Origin: a virus
IMG/VR virus record: IMGVR_UViG_3300023174_000371
Location: 1-36,992 of that record
DNA: 36,992 nt
Direction: 5' to 3' (one strand)
In this document: positions 4,762 to 18,899 of the stretch, in pieces
Position numbering within the stretch: position 1 is the stretch's first letter
How the letters are laid out: every line of letters starts with the position of its first letter
Notes under the pieces: generated by a model
Told to the model about the DNA's origin: nothing
Seen by the model: only the letters and a program-made list of their open reading frames with translations
Databases searched by the model: none
Made by a program: the position numbers and the translations under genes

Positions 4762-4868
4762 CTGGCGCGTCTTGACTAATCTAAACAGGATATGTGTTCA
4801 GTTTAATTTTTGCTAAAACACACTCAGATAGAATTTAGCCTAGATCCTGAAATTCAGGGTTAGAAAGG
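4762..4868 (+). promoter_or_regulatory. leader region with diverged repeat module and start hairpin
   Basis: The 135-nt gap before gene 4874 holds CTGGCGCGTCTTGAC (4762-4776) and AAACAGGAT. These resemble the CTGGCG...CAGGAAAG module before genes 10221 and 11798, but are more diverged. An inverted repeat TGTGTT/AACACA lies at 4793-4798 and 4817-4822, and a -10-like TAGAAT at 4829-4834. A hairpin at 4840-4850/4854-4863 (one bulge) is followed at once by GAAAGG (4863-4868) and the ATG. Promoter function is inferred. Confidence 0.5.
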
Positions 4869-4873
4869 CAAAC

Positions 4874-5335
4874 ATGGATAAAAAAGTGATATGGGTGAAC
4901 GGGCACACTACGCTCACTCTAAAGAATCGCAAGGTTGGGTCAAAGCAATTAACCAAAGAGCAGTATTTGATTGCCGCCAAAACAAGATCCAATTTTAGAA
5001 AATGGGTGTTTGCTCAGGGCAAGGGAAAACCATGCCCAGGCAAATCAACTAAGATCATTGGTGATATTGGTCTTAACTATCATGACGGCAAATGTTGCGA
5101 TGAAATGATGATATCGCCAGCAGTATCCTACGAAACAGTTAAAGAGTTTGTATTGAGCAATCTTTGTTCATTGGAGGAAATAGAAATACAGGCTGAACAT
5201 GCTTTCAGGTTGTATCAAAGGGTCAAGTCATTTGAAGTGCCGTATTCAAAAGACTACAACAAAGAGAAAACAGCGATATACAGGGGGCGCAGACAGGTGT
5301 GGTTGGATCTCCTCCACGCAAAGACCCAAGCGTAA
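4874..5335 (+). CDS. hypothetical protein
   Basis: This 153-residue protein is soluble and basic in its first half (many Lys in residues 12-60) and contains PCPG and KCCDEMM motifs with three cysteines near residues 53-77. The C-terminal half is helical and ends in YRGRRQVWLDLL. I do not recognise the family. It stands alone between a leader hairpin and a strong terminator, so it appears to be its own transcription unit. Independent control suggests an early host-takeover or regulatory protein, but this is only inference. Confidence 0.65.
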   Translation: MDKKVIWVNGHTTLTLKNRKVGSKQLTKEQYLIAAKTRSNFRKWVFAQGKGKPCPGKSTKIIGDIGLNYHDGKCCDEMMISPAVSYETVKEFVLSNLCSLEEIEIQAEHAFRLYQRVKSFEVPYSKDYNKEKTAIYRGRRQVWLDLLHAKTQA

Positions 5336-9540: not shown

Positions 9541-9732
9541 ATGAATAAAAGCATATACACCCAGCCTGAAAGATTACGAATAGGTGATCGTATTCTAATT
9601 AGAGATCAAGAATATACATTGAAATATGTAGACACACCCGACAAATTGGGAACATGTGATATGTATGTAATTGATTCACAAGGACACGATCAACATGAAA
9701 TTGTTACAGGACTGGTTAGAATAGTTATGTGA
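9541..9732 (+). CDS. small hypothetical protein
   Basis: This 63-residue protein is beta-rich (RLRIGDRILIRDQEYTLKYV resembles a small barrel or SH3-like strand pair). The start is ATG 9541; an in-frame TTG at 9526 is rejected because GGAGG (9532-9536) serves the ATG. The stop overlaps the RusA start, so it probably shares a transcript with the resolvase. Function unknown. Confidence 0.6.
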   Translation: MNKSIYTQPERLRIGDRILIRDQEYTLKYVDTPDKLGTCDMYVIDSQGHDQHEIVTGLVRIVM

Positions 9733-10103
9733 TTCAATTCAGAGTAGACGGACAGCCGATTCCACAAGGATCTATGAAAGTCATAAATGGACATATAATC
9801 CATTCGCAAGGTTCTGCGCTTGCCGCATGGCGATCAGCAGTAGCACTTGCCGCTAAACATGCTGGGGCAAAGCCTTCCTTAAATCCAATTGCAATAACAA
9901 TGGTGTTTGTGTTTGCAAGACCAAGAACAGTAACAAGAGCAGAACCAACAGTGCCGCCTGACTTAGATAAATTAATACGCGCAGTGTTAGACGGGCTGAC
10001 CGCAGTAGTGTATAAAGATGACGCACAAGTAACTGAAATTAAAGCGGTAAAAATATACGGAGAATCGCCATGTGTTGAAATACAAATGGCTGAAAAGTTG
10101 TAA
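9729..10103 (+). CDS. rusA: RusA-type Holliday junction resolvase
   Basis: This 124-residue protein contains the RusA motifs: QGSMKV near the N-terminus (residues 13-18) and PPDLDKLIRAVLDGL (76-90) with the acidic pair D78 and D80. YKDDAQV (95-101) supplies further acidic residues. The enzyme cuts branched DNA during recombination and before packaging. It starts at GTG by overlap with the preceding stop and is the last gene of its unit, followed by the repeat module at 10104. Confidence 0.88.
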   Translation: MIQFRVDGQPIPQGSMKVINGHIIHSQGSALAAWRSAVALAAKHAGAKPSLNPIAITMVFVFARPRTVTRAEPTVPPDLDKLIRAVLDGLTAVVYKDDAQVTEIKAVKIYGESPCVEIQMAEKL

Positions 10104-10213
10104 AAAAAGTTATCAAAAAGTTATCAAAATATGTTGGCGCGCCTCTAGATTTTTTACAAACTATCAGGAAAGATTTAGGTTATTGAGATCGCCCGATCTC
10201 AAAAACCGAAAGG
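10104..10213 (+). promoter_or_regulatory. repeated promoter/leader module, copy 1
   Basis: In order: two tandem 11-bp repeats of AAAAAGTTATC (10104-10125), TTGGCGCG (10134-10141), CTAGATTTTT around the -10-like TAGATT (10146-10151), CAGGAAAGATTTAGGTTAT (10165-10183), a perfect 9-bp hairpin TTGAGATCG/CGATCTCAA (10183-10191 and 10194-10202) and GAAAGG (10208-10213). The same order recurs at 11674. It probably drives genes 10221-11672. Confidence 0.65.
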
Positions 10214-10220
10214 CACTAAA

Positions 10221-10394
10221 GTGGATAAGACCCAAAAAAACCTTGTAAATACAAGAGTTTTAGCGTTTGTAGATCGTCTAGTGTTTTGCTACAACTGCCA
10301 AAGCAAATTTTGGACAGCAGTCAAAACAAATGAAACAAAACAAATGAGAATCAGATTTTGCTCTAATTGCAACAGTGAGCAGGTAACCAAATAA
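10221..10394 (+). CDS. 57-residue zinc-ribbon-like protein
   Basis: The frame starts at GTG 10221, with GAAAGG 7 nt upstream, and ends in TAATG overlap with the next gene. The product carries CYNC and CSNC pairs about 25 residues apart, a classic zinc ribbon, and is basic between them. It is the first gene behind the repeat module. It could bind nucleic acid or the host RNA polymerase; this is inference. An in-frame reading from ATT 10182, where copy 2 has the leader ATG, would add 13 residues. Confidence 0.65.
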   Translation: MDKTQKNLVNTRVLAFVDRLVFCYNCQSKFWTAVKTNETKQMRIRFCSNCNSEQVTK

Positions 10395-10666
10395 TGACTA
10401 CAAAAATTCAAGCAGGCAATCAACCAGCATTTGTTGATCCAAAAGGAAACAATATTGACGCCAACTACTGCGTTCAATGCGGTCGCAAGTGCGGATCAAA
10501 CCCTTGGTTTATTGAGGTTATCAAAGGTGGCGAAATCCGCCAACAAGACGGCATTAACTACAACGCTTCACAAGACGCTGGATATATGGGCTGGTGGGCA
10601 GTTGGCAACGAATGCGCAAAACAATTTGAATCCAATGTGTTATTCAAAATGGAGGTAAGCAAATAA
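10394..10666 (+). CDS. small Cys-containing hypothetical protein
   Basis: This 90-residue protein has YCVQCGRKCG near residue 25 and a single later Cys (NECAK, near 75), a possible zinc knuckle. The middle contains GYMGWWAVGNECAKQF, which suggests a compact folded domain. It overlaps its neighbours as TAATG on both sides. No family is recognised. It belongs to the 10221-11672 group behind the first repeat module. Confidence 0.62.
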   Translation: MTTKIQAGNQPAFVDPKGNNIDANYCVQCGRKCGSNPWFIEVIKGGEIRQQDGINYNASQDAGYMGWWAVGNECAKQFESNVLFKMEVSK

Positions 10667-10908
10667 TGACAATCACAATCGTATACAAAGCAGATGTTTC
10701 AGGAACAGATGAGGCACATGCCGCATGGTGCACTGATATAACTAAAAAGTTGAACACACCAGGTTGGCACATGTATGGCAATTTTTCAACAATTGAACAA
10801 GCCGCAAGAGATTTGTTTGGAGACATGCTTGAAGAAGGCAGCATGGATCTTGAAGAGGCAGTTGATAGTATCAAAGTTCTTCCATGCGTAAACAAGGAGG
10901 TGAAATAA
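10666..10908 (+). CDS. small acidic hypothetical protein
   Basis: This 80-residue protein is acidic in its C-terminal half (FGDMLEEGSMDLEEAVDSIK) and mixed alpha/beta by pattern. It has two isolated Cys (22 and 74) and no clear metal site. It is coupled by TAATG to the genes on either side. Function unknown. Confidence 0.6.
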   Translation: MTITIVYKADVSGTDEAHAAWCTDITKKLNTPGWHMYGNFSTIEQAARDLFGDMLEEGSMDLEEAVDSIKVLPCVNKEVK

Positions 10909-11381
10909 TGACTTCAATAACAATCAATGACACAACAGGTCGCACAATTCCTGCGCCTGAAGGTAATTTCAACCCTGAGTGGTGGGGCAAGTATTTACAC
11001 ATAGCAGACAAAGACATCATGGTTGGCGATCCAGCAACATACTCAGTTGGATCTGATTCATACTCAGCAGTGGTCACTGAAGTAGTGCGCTTTAAAGAAG
11101 GTAAGCGCGCTGGTCAAGTCAAATATATCAAGTTAGATGGTCGCGACAAAATGTTGGCTTATCCAATTCTTTGCTCACAACACAAAACACCCAAAATCAA
11201 GTCAGACAAAACTGAAACAATTGAAACACCTTGGGGCGGCACATTTATTCACAAAGATCCAGTTTGCAATGATTGCTGGTTACAACATCATGGCGCACTT
11301 AGATTTCAAGAATCAGCAGATTCATACTGGGCGAGCGCAAGAGTGGGCTCACAAAACCCTTATCAAGATCCACACTTCTAA
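10908..11381 (+). CDS. hypothetical protein with Cys/His cluster
   Basis: The product is 157 residues from ATG 10908. An in-frame ATG at 10884 is less likely because AGGAGG lies between the two, 8 nt before 10908, and 10908 overlaps the previous stop as TAATG. The N-terminal half is beta-rich (PATYSVGSDSYSAVVTEVVRF, like a small barrel). The C-terminal half has C and H residues (CSQH, then PVCNDCWLQHH) that could bind zinc. Possible nucleic-acid-binding protein; family unknown. Confidence 0.62.
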   Translation: MTSITINDTTGRTIPAPEGNFNPEWWGKYLHIADKDIMVGDPATYSVGSDSYSAVVTEVVRFKEGKRAGQVKYIKLDGRDKMLAYPILCSQHKTPKIKSDKTETIETPWGGTFIHKDPVCNDCWLQHHGALRFQESADSYWASARVGSQNPYQDPHF

Positions 11382-11399
11382 AGCAGGAAGCGAAGGCGC

Positions 11400-11672
11400 A
11401 TGTTAATTTCGGAAGAAGACTTCGAACTACTTCATGATGTATCAATGGCATGGGGCGAACAATGGCATGCGCAACAACGCAGATTTTCAAGCAAACACCC
11501 AATTCACTACAACCATTTGTTTGCGTATTGGTTCAGTAACTACGCTTCATATTTATTGGCACGACAATTCTTAATTAACATTGGCACTGATTATCAAGAA
11601 TTGATTGACGAAGCAAGTGGCGATTATGTTTTGGTTAGTAATTATGTATCTATAACTTGGAGAAAACATTGA
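11400..11672 (+). CDS. hypothetical protein
   Basis: This 90-residue protein is rich in aromatic residues and helical (EDFELLHDVSMAWGEQWHAQQRRF, then HLFAYWFSNYASYLLARQFLINIG). The aromatic stretch is only partly hydrophobic, so a membrane helix is uncertain. It is last in its group, and its stop lies 1 nt before the tandem repeats of the second module. Function unknown. Confidence 0.58.
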   Translation: MLISEEDFELLHDVSMAWGEQWHAQQRRFSSKHPIHYNHLFAYWFSNYASYLLARQFLINIGTDYQELIDEASGDYVLVSNYVSITWRKH

Positions 11673-11673
11673 A

Positions 11674-11785
11674 AAAAAGTTATCAAAAAGTTATTTTATT
11701 TGCTGGCGGGTCGCTAGATTTTTAGTAAATAATCAGGAAAGATTTAGGTTATGAAGTTAGAGATACTAACTTCAAAAACGAAAGG
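11674..11785 (+). promoter_or_regulatory. repeated promoter/leader module, copy 2
   Basis: Two tandem AAAAAGTTAT[CT] repeats (11674-11694) are followed by TGCTGGCGGG (11701-11710), TAGATT (11715-11720) and CAGGAAAGATTTAGGTTAT (11734-11752). A 9-bp hairpin TGAAGTTAG/CTAACTTCA (11752-11760 and 11766-11774) and GAAAGG (11780-11785) complete it. The stem sequence differs from copy 1 but pairs fully. It probably drives genes from 11798. Confidence 0.65.
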
Positions 11786-11801
11786 CACGGATCTAAAATG
11801 A
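11751..11801 (+). CDS. 16-residue leader peptide
   Basis: ATG 11751 follows AGGAAAG by 9 nt and opens MKLEILTSKTKGTDLK, whose stop TGA overlaps the next ATG as ATGA. The hairpin lies inside this frame, so a ribosome translating the leader would melt it and reach the next start. This suggests a coupling or attenuation device. Copy 1 has ATT in place of this ATG. Confidence 0.45.
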   Translation: MKLEILTSKTKGTDLK

Positions 11802-12172
11802 GCACACACGCACTCATCGGAGTAAAAACACCAACAGGCTACAAAGCCCGTTTTGTTCATTATGACGGCTACACAGAGGCAATGCTTCCAGCAATTAAGC
11901 GTTGTATTCAAAATCATTGGGTAGCAGGCAACACATACCTTGATGCAAGAAACTACATGTTAAGTAATCACTGGAGTTCATTTAACATCTCAGAGCATTC
12001 AGTTGCTCAATCTCATACTCACGATCAGGTTTGGTATACCGAGAATGACGGTATTGACGCACAATACTTGTACATTCTAGATGAGAAAGAAGTGACTGCT
12101 TATATCAACCTACACGGCAAATGGATCGCAATAGATCCAACCAAAACAATTGAAACAAAGATATACGCATAA
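11798..12172 (+). CDS. conserved-type phage protein of unknown function
   Basis: This 124-residue protein begins MSTHALIGVKTPTGYKARFVHYDGY, a start I have seen in actinophage proteins without known function. It is alpha/beta in pattern, rich in His and Tyr, with no clear catalytic motif. It is the first full gene behind the second repeat module and overlaps the leader-peptide stop. Small Zn-type genes follow it. Confidence 0.7.
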   Translation: MSTHALIGVKTPTGYKARFVHYDGYTEAMLPAIKRCIQNHWVAGNTYLDARNYMLSNHWSSFNISEHSVAQSHTHDQVWYTENDGIDAQYLYILDEKEVTAYINLHGKWIAIDPTKTIETKIYA

Positions 12173-12345
12173 TGAAAACATACAACTGCTTGAAGTGCCA
12201 AACAGCAAGTTCTGAGGCATACGACAATCAATGGTTTGCTAACAAATACGGCAAAGTTTGCCTATGGTGTGCAGACATATCTATTGATACAACACGCTAC
12301 GCAGGTATAACACGCATGGCTGACGCAGAAATGGGTGATTTATGA
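12172..12345 (+). CDS. 57-residue double-CxxC protein
   Basis: The frame begins by TAATG overlap and ends by ATGA overlap with the next gene. CLKC (C6, C9) and CLWC (C30, C33) form a likely zinc ribbon. The C-terminal part is helical (AGITRMADAEMGDL). Too small to assign; it tiles exactly between coupled genes, which supports it. Confidence 0.62.
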   Translation: MKTYNCLKCQTASSEAYDNQWFANKYGKVCLWCADISIDTTRYAGITRMADAEMGDL

Positions 12346-12500
12346 AAACATTTGTAATCACTGAAGATCAAATGGAAATACTGCTAGACACATTCATCAA
12401 GTTTGGCGAAGCCATAGCCAGTAAATCAGGTGTAACACCTGCGTTGGCTCAACAAATGGAAAAATCCTTCAATGTATGCGAAACAGTGGTCAAACAATGA
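12342..12500 (+). CDS. 52-residue helical protein
   Basis: This short helical protein (MEILLDTFIKFGEAIASKSG is an amphipathic helix) has one Cys. It is coupled by ATGA to genes on both sides. No signal peptide, membrane span or known motif is visible. Function unknown. Confidence 0.55.
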   Translation: MKTFVITEDQMEILLDTFIKFGEAIASKSGVTPALAQQMEKSFNVCETVVKQ

Positions 12501-12664
12501 GATCAACAAACTACTACCGCATTAGAACAGCAGTTCGCATATTGTTTTGGATTGGATTTGCCGCAGTAATCTACCTACTTGCTACGCATATCAACTGGGT
12601 TGGTGACGGATATTGCTGGGGCAGTATTGACAAATGTTATCCATCAACCATTGGAGGCAAGTAA
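12497..12664 (+). CDS. small single-pass membrane protein
   Basis: This 55-residue protein starts at ATG 12497, which overlaps the previous stop (ATGA); an in-frame ATG at 12476 would overlap further and is less likely. A basic N-terminus (RSTNYYRIRTAVR) precedes one membrane helix (ILFWIGFAAVIYLLATHI). Two Cys follow, and the C-terminus would lie outside if the positive-inside rule holds. It could act in superinfection exclusion or as a lysis accessory; neither is proven. Confidence 0.6.
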   Translation: MRSTNYYRIRTAVRILFWIGFAAVIYLLATHINWVGDGYCWGSIDKCYPSTIGGK

Positions 12665-12963
12665 TGTGTTATTCAGGCAATTTACAAGGTTGTGATCGCA
12701 CACCTTCAGGTTTGCGCAAATACGACATTGACGATTTTATACAAGAACTTCAAAACAGAGGCATACCCAAAGAACGCATTGTGTTGAGGGTGCTTCCAAT
12801 TGACGGCAGAGATTATTACAGGATCACACTGCTATCAGGCAACACAGATCCTAATTGCCACTGGCTACACAAAGAAAAGTATTACTACACTTTTAATGAA
12901 CGCACACTTGATTGGGGTACTACTTGGTATCACGCACACGCAAAGGAAATGACCAATGTCTGA
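12664..12963 (+). CDS. hypothetical protein
   Basis: This 99-residue protein starts at ATG 12664, coupled as TAATG with the membrane protein; the in-frame alternative at 12634 is rejected for that reason. The sequence is alpha/beta with LRKYDIDDFIQELQNRGIPKERIVLRVLPIDGRDYYRITLLSG, like a small ferredoxin-type fold. No catalytic residues are recognised. It overlaps the next tiny gene by 8 nt. Confidence 0.58.
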   Translation: MCYSGNLQGCDRTPSGLRKYDIDDFIQELQNRGIPKERIVLRVLPIDGRDYYRITLLSGNTDPNCHWLHKEKYYYTFNERTLDWGTTWYHAHAKEMTNV

Positions 12964-13078
12964 ATACAAACCAGTAGATATAACAAAAGAAGTTTGCACA
13001 GTCTGCCAAGAAAAAGCAACCAACATTTTTTACGGCAAATTTTTATGCGCAGATCATTACGAACTCAGTAGGCACTAG
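12956..13078 (+). CDS. 40-residue zinc-finger-like protein
   Basis: The product has CTVC (C14, C17) and later CADHY (C31, H34), a compact zinc-finger pattern. It overlaps the previous gene by 8 nt. Its stop TAG is the first part of the -10-like TAGATT of the third repeat module. One of several similar tiny Cys proteins in this region. Confidence 0.55.
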   Translation: MSEYKPVDITKEVCTVCQEKATNIFYGKFLCADHYELSRH

Positions 13079-13111
13079 ATTTTTTTAAGAAAATCAGGAA
13101 GGATTTAGATT
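13073..13111 (+). promoter_or_regulatory. repeated promoter/leader module, short copy 3
   Basis: CACTAGATTTTTTT with TAGATT at 13076-13081 is followed by ATCAGGAAGGATTTAGATT and the ATG of gene 13112. Upstream tandem repeats and the hairpin are absent. Here the CAGGAAGG box itself is the ribosome site (9 nt before the ATG). Confidence 0.55.
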
Positions 13112-13567
13112 ATGCAGACTTTTCTACCATACGCGCATTTCAAACACACTGCTAGCGTGCTTGACGATAAACGATTAGGCAAACAGCGTGTTGAGGCTTG
13201 GCAGATCCTTAGAGCATTACGAGGAGAAACCAAAGGTTGGGTCAATCACCCAGCGACAGTAATGTGGCAAGGGCATGAACAGACACTAATTGAGTACGGC
13301 TTGGAGATCTGCTTGGAGTGGAAGCAAAGAGGCTTCGAAGACACGCTCTACGCCCGATTTGAGGCTGAATTCAATGGCTGGTCTGACGCTAGACCTTGGT
13401 GGATTGGTTATGAGCCATTACACATTAGTCATAGATCTAATCTCAGACGCAAAGATCCAATTTACTACGGCGCTTTCACTGAACCAATTGACCTACCTTA
13501 TATTTGGTGCAAGCCTGACGGAACTTTTAAGGTAGGAGAAAAACCAGAGGTGGCACTTGTCAATTAG
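13112..13567 (+). CDS. pyrimidine-dimer DNA glycosylase-like, MSMEG_6728 family
   Basis: This 151-residue protein matches the actinobacterial MSMEG_6728 family related to T4 endonuclease V: MQTFLPYAHF start, SVLDDKRLGKQRVEAWQILRAL (15-37), HPATVMWQGHE (46-56) and SHRSNLRRKDP (105-115). Such enzymes excise UV-made pyrimidine dimers in DNA. It is directly preceded by the short repeat module, so it may be separately controlled. In a sunlit freshwater setting, UV repair is a plausible benefit. It may also meet the modified base made by the 16479-19438 genes. Confidence 0.8.
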   Translation: MQTFLPYAHFKHTASVLDDKRLGKQRVEAWQILRALRGETKGWVNHPATVMWQGHEQTLIEYGLEICLEWKQRGFEDTLYARFEAEFNGWSDARPWWIGYEPLHISHRSNLRRKDPIYYGAFTEPIDLPYIWCKPDGTFKVGEKPEVALVN

Positions 13568-16478: not shown

Positions 16479-17150
16479 ATGGAGATTACAAAGGCGCAAG
16501 TCACAGATCTGAAAGAATACCGCAACAACCCACGCAAGGGTAATGTTGATCTGATTGCTGAATCATTGTCCAAATACGGACAATATAAACCAATCACAGT
16601 GAACAAATCAACAGGTGAAATACTTGCCGGTAATCACACTTTCAAAGCGGCAAAACAATTAGGTTGGTCAGACATTGATGTTGTTTATGTAGATGTTGAT
16701 GATACAACTGCGGCAAAAATTGTAGCCATAGACAACAGAGCGTCTGACATGGGCGAATACGACAAAATTGTTTTAGCAGATTTACTAGACAGCATGGACA
16801 CGCTTGAAGGATCAGGCTACACATTTGACGAGTATGACGATCTTAAAGCGAAAATTGATGAGGCTACTGCGCCTTCCCTAGAACACAAAACATATTTTGC
16901 TTCACTTGAAGCAGGCGAAACAGGTCAATCAGGCACAAGGTTTATACCTTCATTGGGAGATTACGCTGAAAGGTATATTAACAAGGCAACCCGTATGCTC
17001 ATGTGCGATTATCACAATGACACCTATGTTTGGATTGTAGATAAATTGATAGAATATAGAACCAATAACAAAATAAACAGCAATGCTGAAGCCATATTGA
17101 AACTGGTTGAAGATGTTGCTGGGGAAAAATGCCCTCATGAAATTATCTGA
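16479..17150 (+). CDS. ParB-like nuclease-domain protein of the DNA-modification cassette
   Basis: This 223-residue protein's N-terminal 90 residues form the ParB/sulfiredoxin-like domain: YRNNPRKGNVDLIAESLSKYGQYKPITV (14-41), GEILAGNHTFKAAKQLGW (46-63) and KIVAIDNRASD (80-90). In chromosomal ParB this fold binds CTP; in phages it is often linked to base-modification genes, as noted by Iyer and colleagues. The C-terminal half is unassigned. It overlaps the dioxygenase, so it may direct or license modification. Confidence 0.78.
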   Translation: MEITKAQVTDLKEYRNNPRKGNVDLIAESLSKYGQYKPITVNKSTGEILAGNHTFKAAKQLGWSDIDVVYVDVDDTTAAKIVAIDNRASDMGEYDKIVLADLLDSMDTLEGSGYTFDEYDDLKAKIDEATAPSLEHKTYFASLEAGETGQSGTRFIPSLGDYAERYINKATRMLMCDYHNDTYVWIVDKLIEYRTNNKINSNAEAILKLVEDVAGEKCPHEII

Positions 17151-18015
17151 TCTGCCTGTATACAAAATTAAAAGAGTTATGTCTGAAGAAGACGCAACTG
17201 CTTTAGTTGGAACCACTGTGCCTGACTACGAGCCAACATGTATTGACGAAGGCATTTGGATAGATGAAGATACTGAAGAAATTGTGTTTGTCTATTTCCC
17301 AATGGAGGAAGAAGTATCACTACTTAGAGCATCAGTGTTAAATATCAATTACGGAGAAACAATCCGTCAATCAACAGGTTTGAAAAACAAATCAAGAACA
17401 TTTGGCATGGCGCCAAGAAAAGTATTTCAACGCAGAGAAAGTTGCCGACCAACATCATTGGCTTATGAACAACCTGAAGAACACGCAGTATTGGTTGCTT
17501 TCGCAGAGAAGTTTGCCAAGATGTATAAAGAGTTTGCGCCTGATTTGTACGAACAAGACAAAAAGAACCTTGCTGACGCAGGATTAGCAGATGAATGGAG
17601 ATTGACTGATGACGCATTATGGACTTCAGGAGTTGTCAACAAGGCTTCAACGCTTCCTTATCACAGAGATGGATTCAACTTTGCTACATGGTCAGCCATG
17701 CCAGTTATTCGCAAAGAAATGAAAGGCGGATACCTTACTTTGCCTGAATACAATTTTACTTGCTCATGCCGCGATGGTTGGGTGACTTTTTTTGCTGGAT
17801 ACAAATATGTTCACGGTGTAACACCAATGACGCCTAAAAGCGCTGATTCATATAGATATTCAATTGTTTATTACGCATTACGAGGATTGAAAGATTGTTT
17901 TACTTACGCAGTCGAAACAGCCAAAGCAAGAGAGAGCAGAACTGCCCGTGAAGACAACATGGCTAGAGCGCTCAAAGGCGAAGTAGATATGCCCGTTCTC
18001 GGTAAAGGTAAATGA
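17137..18015 (+). CDS. TET/JBP-like 2-oxoglutarate/Fe(II) dioxygenase
   Basis: This 292-residue protein starts at ATG 17137 inside the ParB end; the in-frame ATG at 17107 is less likely. The iron ligands are in PYHRDGF (H176, D178) and HGVTPM (H226), and R240 in SYRYSIVYY should bind 2-oxoglutarate. GGYLTLPEYNF (197-207) is the strand pair typical of TET/JBP enzymes. These oxidise the methyl group of thymine (JBP) or 5-methylcytosine (TET) in DNA. The next two genes suggest the oxidised base is modified further. The substrate cannot be decided from sequence. Confidence 0.75.
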   Translation: MKLSDLPVYKIKRVMSEEDATALVGTTVPDYEPTCIDEGIWIDEDTEEIVFVYFPMEEEVSLLRASVLNINYGETIRQSTGLKNKSRTFGMAPRKVFQRRESCRPTSLAYEQPEEHAVLVAFAEKFAKMYKEFAPDLYEQDKKNLADAGLADEWRLTDDALWTSGVVNKASTLPYHRDGFNFATWSAMPVIRKEMKGGYLTLPEYNFTCSCRDGWVTFFAGYKYVHGVTPMTPKSADSYRYSIVYYALRGLKDCFTYAVETAKARESRTAREDNMARALKGEVDMPVLGKGK

Positions 18016-18899
18016 CAGTTTGGCAAGATTACGCTGAATTACATCAAGCAATGGTTGACGCCAACGAACTTGATCCAATCTATCCACTGCTGAAAGAAAT
18101 AGCAAGACTACTTGACTTAAACAAAGATGAAGCAGCGTGGTTGTGCCATGTTTATGTTGCTTATTACGATTTTGGTTCAGGGCTAACTTGCTACGATCAA
18201 GTCAGATCTCCAGCAGTGCCTTCAGAGGATCTATTGAAATTACCTTGCGACACTGAGCGTAGAAATCACCGCACACCTAGCAAACTCAAACAACATTTTG
18301 AATCAGTTGTGTCTATTGCTGAGAACAATGGCGGATTGCACACTTGGTTATCAAAATACATACGAGATACACCCCAACAGAGTTGGACGGCAATGCTTGA
18401 TCCGCTTGAAACAATATACGGCAACGGCAGGTGGGCTTCATACAAACTTGTAGAGATGATTGGATTTGTTTGCGATCTACCCGTTGAAGCGCCTGATATG
18501 GGTCACGCCAACAGCACTGGTCCAAGAGCAGGATTGAACTACCTTTATTCAGGATTACCTTCAGGTAACAGACCTTCTGAGATCGCATACTTAGATAAAG
18601 TGTCATTGAATTTGATAGACAAATTGGCTGAACAAGGAGTTCAAACAAGGCTACAAGAGGCAGAAACATCTCTCTGCGCATTGAAGTCGTTAATCAAAGG
18701 CACTTACTACATTGGCGAAGATTTGGACGCCATGCTGGAGGAGATAAAACGGCAACCAAATGGCTTGACAGAATTGGCTCTAGAAGCCCGATCAAATGTG
18801 TTCCCACATAGATACTTGGGGGAGAAAATGGGTTGGGAAGGTGTAGACAAAGCAAGGTTGAAGGCATACAAAGAAACAGGTAAGATCCTTATTAGATAA
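18012..18899 (+). CDS. aGPT-PPlase2 / amino acid:DNA transferase-like protein
   Basis: This 295-residue, mostly helical protein resembles the phage family called alpha-glutamyl/putrescinyl thymine pyrophosphorylase clade 2. It has an N-terminal WLCHVYVAYYDFGSGLTCYDQV (44-65), then IYGNGRWASYKLVEMI (136-151), then a DMGHANSTGPRAGLNYL segment (163-179). Family members replace the phosphate on a hydroxymethyl pyrimidine with an amine such as an amino acid or polyamine. Family match is by recalled pattern, so moderately sure. It overlaps the dioxygenase by 4 nt and precedes the kinase by 11 nt. Confidence 0.68.
   Translation: MTVWQDYAELHQAMVDANELDPIYPLLKEIARLLDLNKDEAAWLCHVYVAYYDFGSGLTCYDQVRSPAVPSEDLLKLPCDTERRNHRTPSKLKQHFESVVSIAENNGGLHTWLSKYIRDTPQQSWTAMLDPLETIYGNGRWASYKLVEMIGFVCDLPVEAPDMGHANSTGPRAGLNYLYSGLPSGNRPSEIAYLDKVSLNLIDKLAEQGVQTRLQEAETSLCALKSLIKGTYYIGEDLDAMLEEIKRQPNGLTELALEARSNVFPHRYLGEKMGWEGVDKARLKAYKETGKILIR

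Follow-up and report, generated by a model that had tools for sequence, protein, structure and literature searches.

In the window (the whole 36,992-base virus record IMGVR_UViG_3300023174_000371), three groups of accessory genes each begin at a copy of one repeated module, a predicted promoter that is followed in copies 1 and 2, and in a diverged copy 4, by a hairpin at the predicted 5' end of the message. Because some 60 related phages keep this hairpin while its letters change, the comparison points to a working RNA part and not to a chance repeat. Our reading, held with slight preference, is that the copies are promoters read by a host sigma factor and that the RNA made from copies 1, 2 and 4 opens with a protective 5' hairpin. 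This is a defined, testable expression module for the accessory genes of a widespread, little-studied freshwater phage group, and it marks where the fast-changing genes of these phages begin.

The phage and its relatives

The window phage is a freshwater tailed phage with every main gene on one strand (terminase, portal, tape measure, rusA, a Cas4-like exonuclease and a 2OG-oxygenase/amino-acid:DNA transferase pair), and the genomes of its relatives are collinear with it. One relative, with a terminase 79% identical, sits in an Actinomycetota MAG contig, suggesting that the host of the window phage is likely an actinobacterium. In L250 (RGDC01000007.1), a close relative in a contig filed under an Actinomycetota MAG, the promoter-hairpin module also follows rusA (1449–1548). 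Elsewhere in the window, positions 16479–18899 encode in a row a ParB-like protein, a Tet/JBP-type 2OG oxygenase (Pfam 2e-12; PHROG label, queuine tRNA-ribosyltransferase) and an amino-acid:DNA transferase (ADDT; match 2e-23), a probable DNA hypermodification cassette.

The repeated module in the window

The 20-nt word TCAGGAAAGATTTAGGTTAT occurs exactly at 10164–10183 and 11733–11752 and with 2 mismatches at 13094–13113, as compared to 0.01 matches expected by chance (dinucleotide shuffles); the earlier note's report of a repeated module at three gene-group starts is thus borne out. A repeat search returned these sites as a single 55-nt family at 10129–10183, 11698–11752 (82% identical to copy 1) and 13059–13113 (65% identical to copy 1). 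The -35-like motif T[A/C]GA[C/T]TTTT has three occurrences in 37 kb, each on the + strand and each at one of copies 1–3.

Both features that had been described 5' of copies 1 and 2, the tandem repeats and GGCG, are present, the former as 11-nt A-tract repeats (AAAAAGTTATC). These may be UP-element-like, and A-tracts of like kind are also present in relatives. A GGCG-rich word separates the A-tracts from the -35 region (GGCGCGCC at 10130–10143, GGCGGGTC at 11704–11711 and GGCGCGTC at 4762–4770), as it does in several relatives. The diverged form that was placed at 4762 is real, but its position needs correction: the aligning part, TCAGATAGAATTTAGCCTA, is at 4824–4842 and not in the TTGACT region at approximately 4762–4772. 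The counterpart of this copy in two relatives (G012 and G010) also has a hairpin.

Table 1. Positions of the repeated module and of neighbouring genes in the window.
Feature	Position	Strand	Description
Diverged copy 4	4824–4861	+	-10-like TAGAAT 4829–4834; hairpin GATCCTGA-AAT-TCAGGGTT 4843–4861
Gene behind copy 4	4874–5335	+	
rusA	9729–10103	+	RusA Pfam E 9e-15; conserved, directly 5' of module 1
A-tract tandem repeat	10104–10129	+	Period 11 (AAAAAGTTATC, twice); 5' of promoter copy 1
Predicted promoter copy 1	10146–10181	+	-35 TAGATT 10146–10151, 18-bp spacer, -10 AAGATT 10170–10175; predicted +1 A 10182
5'-terminal hairpin 1	10183–10202	+	TTGAGATC-GCCC-GATCTCAA; perfect 8 bp, 4-nt loop
Shine-Dalgarno-like GAAAGG, copy 1	10208–10213	+	
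First gene, unit 1	10221–10394	+	57 aa, zinc-ribbon-like; begins with conserved start segment VDKTQKNLVNT
Predicted promoter copy 2	11715–11750	+	-35 TAGATT 11715–11720, 18-bp spacer, -10 AAGATT 11739–11744; predicted +1 A 11751
5'-terminal hairpin 2	11752–11774	+	TGAAGTTAG-AGATA-CTAACTTCA; perfect 9 bp, 5-nt loop
Shine-Dalgarno-like GAAAGG, copy 2	11780–11785	+	
First gene, unit 2	11798–12172	+	124 aa, MSTHALIG...; similar to the first gene after rusA in relative L206
Predicted promoter copy 3	13076–13113	+	-35 TAGATT 13076–13081, 18-bp spacer, -10 AGGATT 13100–13105; predicted +1 13112; no hairpin
First gene, unit 3	13112–13567	+	Pyrimidine-dimer DNA glycosylase (T4 endonuclease V-like, Pyr_excise), Pfam E 5e-23

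A sigma70-type promoter was taken to have a -35 near TTGACA, a -10 near TANNNT, 16–18 bp between them and +1 about 7 nt further on. The candidate promoters have this layout, with a spacer of 18 bp in each of copies 1–3 and mostly of 16–18 bp in relatives. The AAGATT -10 element of the window copies is weak, and an alternative (TAGGTT/TAGATT) lies six bases further; the first position is favoured because relatives carry TAGATT or TAGACT there. Copies 1–3 precede the genes at 10221, 11798 and 13112. In copy 3, which abuts the ATG, the predicted +1 is the A of the start codon, 7 nt past the last -10 base. This is an independent fit to the start-site geometry, and the copy 3 message is predicted to be leaderless. 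No common promoter was found upstream of homologs of the unit 3 glycosylase elsewhere, whose contigs are those of other phages. Within unit 1, a stop/start sequence resembling AGGTAA.CAAATAATGAC is common to three internal gene junctions (10381–10921; repeat family D3).

Hairpins at the predicted 5' ends

The earlier note did not mention that a hairpin lies immediately behind copies 1, 2 and 4, nor that copy 3 adjoins an ATG. Hairpins 1 and 2 occupy the same position (from approximately +2) with unrelated stem sequences, and each is followed by AAAAAC(C)GAAAGGCAC and then the start codon. The sequence behind them is A-rich and lacks a T run, excluding an intrinsic terminator. Transcripts predicted from copies 1 and 2 fold better than shuffled sequences (z of -2.7 and -2.8, respectively). 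A search of the window against Rfam gave no match at gathering score.

Conservation in related phages

Since searching with the 20-nt word by itself retrieves hardly any relatives, these were collected using rusA as an anchor, and 67 distinct leaders, including that of the window, were compared. In essentially all of the 66 distinct relatives, rusA is followed by a promoter-like sequence, a hairpin, a Shine-Dalgarno site and a variable first gene (60 such proteins fall into 31 clusters). The motif search that had been suggested divides in its outcome: the module is at the equivalent place in approximately 66 relatives, whereas the 20-nt word is confined to the window and a single contig nearly identical to it. 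On this comparison, the proposal that a promoter/leader module splits the accessory genes into separate units is well supported.

Of 61 distinct leaders, 97% contain a hairpin scoring at least 12, a score that 23% of shuffled leaders reach; in a few leaders where the automatic choice was wrong, it was located by eye. In the group to which the window belongs, 96.8% of the cells of a six-pair stem are paired (83.6% in shuffles, at most 57% in slid controls), with 20 two-sided changes compared to 4.3 in shuffles, and in a second hairpin group the inner stem is 93.7% and an outer helix 86% paired; many relatives share descent, so these counts are not independent. G-U pairs are used freely in the window-type stem, which fits RNA and not DNA. 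Many relatives have at least two modules, each with a stem sequence of its own. A descriptor combining promoter, hairpin and start gave 34 forward and 4 reverse matches in 18 genomes, against approximately 0–1 per shuffled genome, although some of the forward matches are intragenic and probably due to chance and window copies 2 and 4 were missed.

Mechanism and alternative explanations

In the favoured reading, each copy would be a housekeeping-type promoter, read by the host sigma factor, that launches its own accessory-gene message. RNA from copies 1, 2 and 4 would start at an A and fold almost immediately, leaving few unpaired 5' bases and an open Shine-Dalgarno site just 3' of the hairpin. 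The hairpin would keep RppH, RNase E and RNase J, the agents of 5'-end-dependent decay, off the message, and would also insulate the ribosome-binding site. From copy 3, with the same kind of promoter and no leader, the RNA would begin at the AUG. Stem-loops at the 5' end are an established means of stabilising mRNA in E. coli and B. subtilis (references in the review PMC3997798). Given the predicted +1, both fold and covariation agree with the rule for such stabilisers (a stable hairpin preceded by no more than a few unpaired bases), a rule that comes from other bacteria and may not hold for the host of the window phage.

The same leaders might instead, or jointly, act as a timing lock of the T4 gene e/soc type, a reading to which we give about half the credence of the first. 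In many relatives, a left arm located between the -10 and +1 can pair with a right arm at the Shine-Dalgarno site, both just outside the hairpin. The local promoter would then lie within the 5' arm of a longer hairpin, such that RNA reading through from the rusA operon hides the Shine-Dalgarno site while local RNA, lacking the arm, is translated. In swap tests, which treat related sequences as independent and are thereby overstated, arms pair at -5.9 kcal/mol with their own partners and at -4.2 kcal/mol with swapped ones (0 of 20,000 permutations), own partners being better in 106 and worse in 17 of 140 near pairs, and better in 18 and worse in 5 same-genome swaps (p 0.02). The predicted openness of the Shine-Dalgarno site is 0.67 in the local transcript and 0.27 in an assumed read-through transcript (0.40 with shuffled upstream sequence). 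The pairing of the outer helix in the second group likewise agrees with a lock, and the mechanism is known for T4 e, soc, 49 and I-TevI (PMC3014915, PMC2988022). However, some relatives have no outer arm, and in the window itself copy 1 has GGTT/AACC only and copy 2 almost nothing; we therefore hold the lock as a rival or addition at the level of the family.

The remaining explanations are all improbable. The earlier note's suggestion of a phage regulon, in which a phage sigma factor or activator would read TCAGGAAAGATTTAGGTTAT, draws on the fact that this spacer word is retained throughout copies 1–3, including copy 3, whose flanks differ. The word contains an ordinary -10 at the correct spacing, however, it is not retained in relatives with approximately 85% identical terminase, and the window copies may be recent duplicates. 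Such a regulon is unnecessary, as what the relatives share is the housekeeping-type -35/-10 geometry and the hairpin, not the 20-nt word; we give it little weight. Slightly less credible still is a DNA operator, in which a repressor of phage or host origin would bind the inverted repeats at +2 to +20: a dyad at a promoter start is what an operator typically looks like, and in many relatives the outer and inner arms form one long DNA palindrome, but the stem makes free use of G-U, the window stems are unrelated within one genome and those of most relatives differ between copies. A single-repressor operator was rejected, because one repressor could not read differing stems. An antitermination site of the nut/boxB or put kind, at which a promoter-proximal hairpin loads an antiterminator onto the polymerase, would suit both the position directly behind the promoters and the size of the hairpin (a 4–6 bp stem and a 4–5 nt loop, similar to boxB). 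We regard it as the most doubtful of these readings, given that loop and stem letters vary among copies of one genome, that no boxA was seen by eye and that Rfam gave no match at gathering scores.

Comparison with known elements

The module had been likened in concept to the start-associated sequences (SAS) of cluster K mycobacteriophages, and there is a likeness in that both are short repeated elements before non-structural genes of different families. SAS are fixed 13-bp sequences (GGGATAGGAGCCC-like) located 3–7 bp before start codons, on the ribosome-binding site; ESAS are conserved 17-bp imperfect inverted repeats of fixed sequence, whose left and right changes are non-pairing and which were judged not to be RNA hairpins; a promoter function is described for neither (PMC3203893). 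The analogy fails on these points, since the module here has a predicted promoter upstream and a hairpin kept by compensatory changes. No SAS-like 13-bp sequence was seen in the window leaders when read by eye, and identity with ESAS was rejected, as stems in the window family differ between copies and change in pairing fashion.

Closer parallels are the ompA, papA and aprE leaders (references in PMC3997798), which likewise have a hairpin a few bases from the 5' end (predicted in our case) and an open Shine-Dalgarno site behind it. Unlike them, the element described here recurs as a module in phage genomes and varies in stem sequence, and its stabilising effect would follow by analogy. As in T4 gene e, soc and I-TevI, the promoter in many relatives overlaps a 5' arm able to pair at the Shine-Dalgarno site; unlike those genes, the local transcript has an extra inner hairpin, the window copies have a weak outer arm or none, and the promoters appear ordinary rather than T4 late. 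Copy 3 resembles leaderless actinobacterial promoters, with the A of the ATG 7 nt after the -10, although its start site is a predicted one. Nothing relevant on comparable elements in actinobacteriophages came up in a literature search. In kind, the module would be a 5'-terminal stabilising hairpin, possibly combined with a T4-type lock. Dozens of natural 5' hairpins that share a layout but not their letters also make up a test set for the relation between 5'-end structure and message life.

A conserved start segment within the first genes

The most unusual part of the module is the start segment. In the subgroup of the window, the module continues approximately 12 codons into the gene, where it is conserved at the nucleotide level and fused to unrelated proteins; its forms are MLDQK[K/E]TVNTSEF and MxxSQKNPLNTSDF. 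Within the window it is found at copy 1 only, while eight relatives have it in two copies per genome before unrelated proteins. After removal of 14 residues, 21 tagged proteins fall into 9 unrelated clusters, and some tagged families also occur untagged elsewhere (e.g., L187, MATTVKIQAGDQPNFAEP; L219, ...GATENWFRN). In the window-type group, synonymous changes are absent from the core codons, as against approximately 50% synonymous-different codons between the main lineages in the neighbouring rusA; the other group has 0–1 synonymous changes in the core. This suggests that the segment is either conserved as nucleotide sequence or recently spread.

Taken with the 9 unrelated clusters, the absence of synonymous change in the core leads us to propose, tentatively and with somewhat less than even confidence, a start cassette in which promoter, 5' hairpin, ribosome-binding site and approximately 12 codons are fused in frame to unrelated accessory genes. 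This freshwater phage family would carry at least two copies per genome and swap new genes in behind a fixed start, which could explain how genes are plugged in without the building of new promoters. As to the role of the segment itself, we can only guess at A-rich early codons favouring translation or at homology for gene exchange. The idea that the A-rich segment pairs with the promoter T-run was dropped, as such pairing fails across relatives when inspected by eye.

Shared N-terminal stretches of 10–13 residues were seen in pairs of unrelated proteins from the same genome, each behind a promoter-hairpin module and with nearly identical segment DNA: G004 (21699/23149), G006 (1675/3494), G008 (36576/38157), G010 (7998/9647), G011 (6514/8231), L142 (5494/7141), L143 (5494/7060) and L146 (3156/4605).
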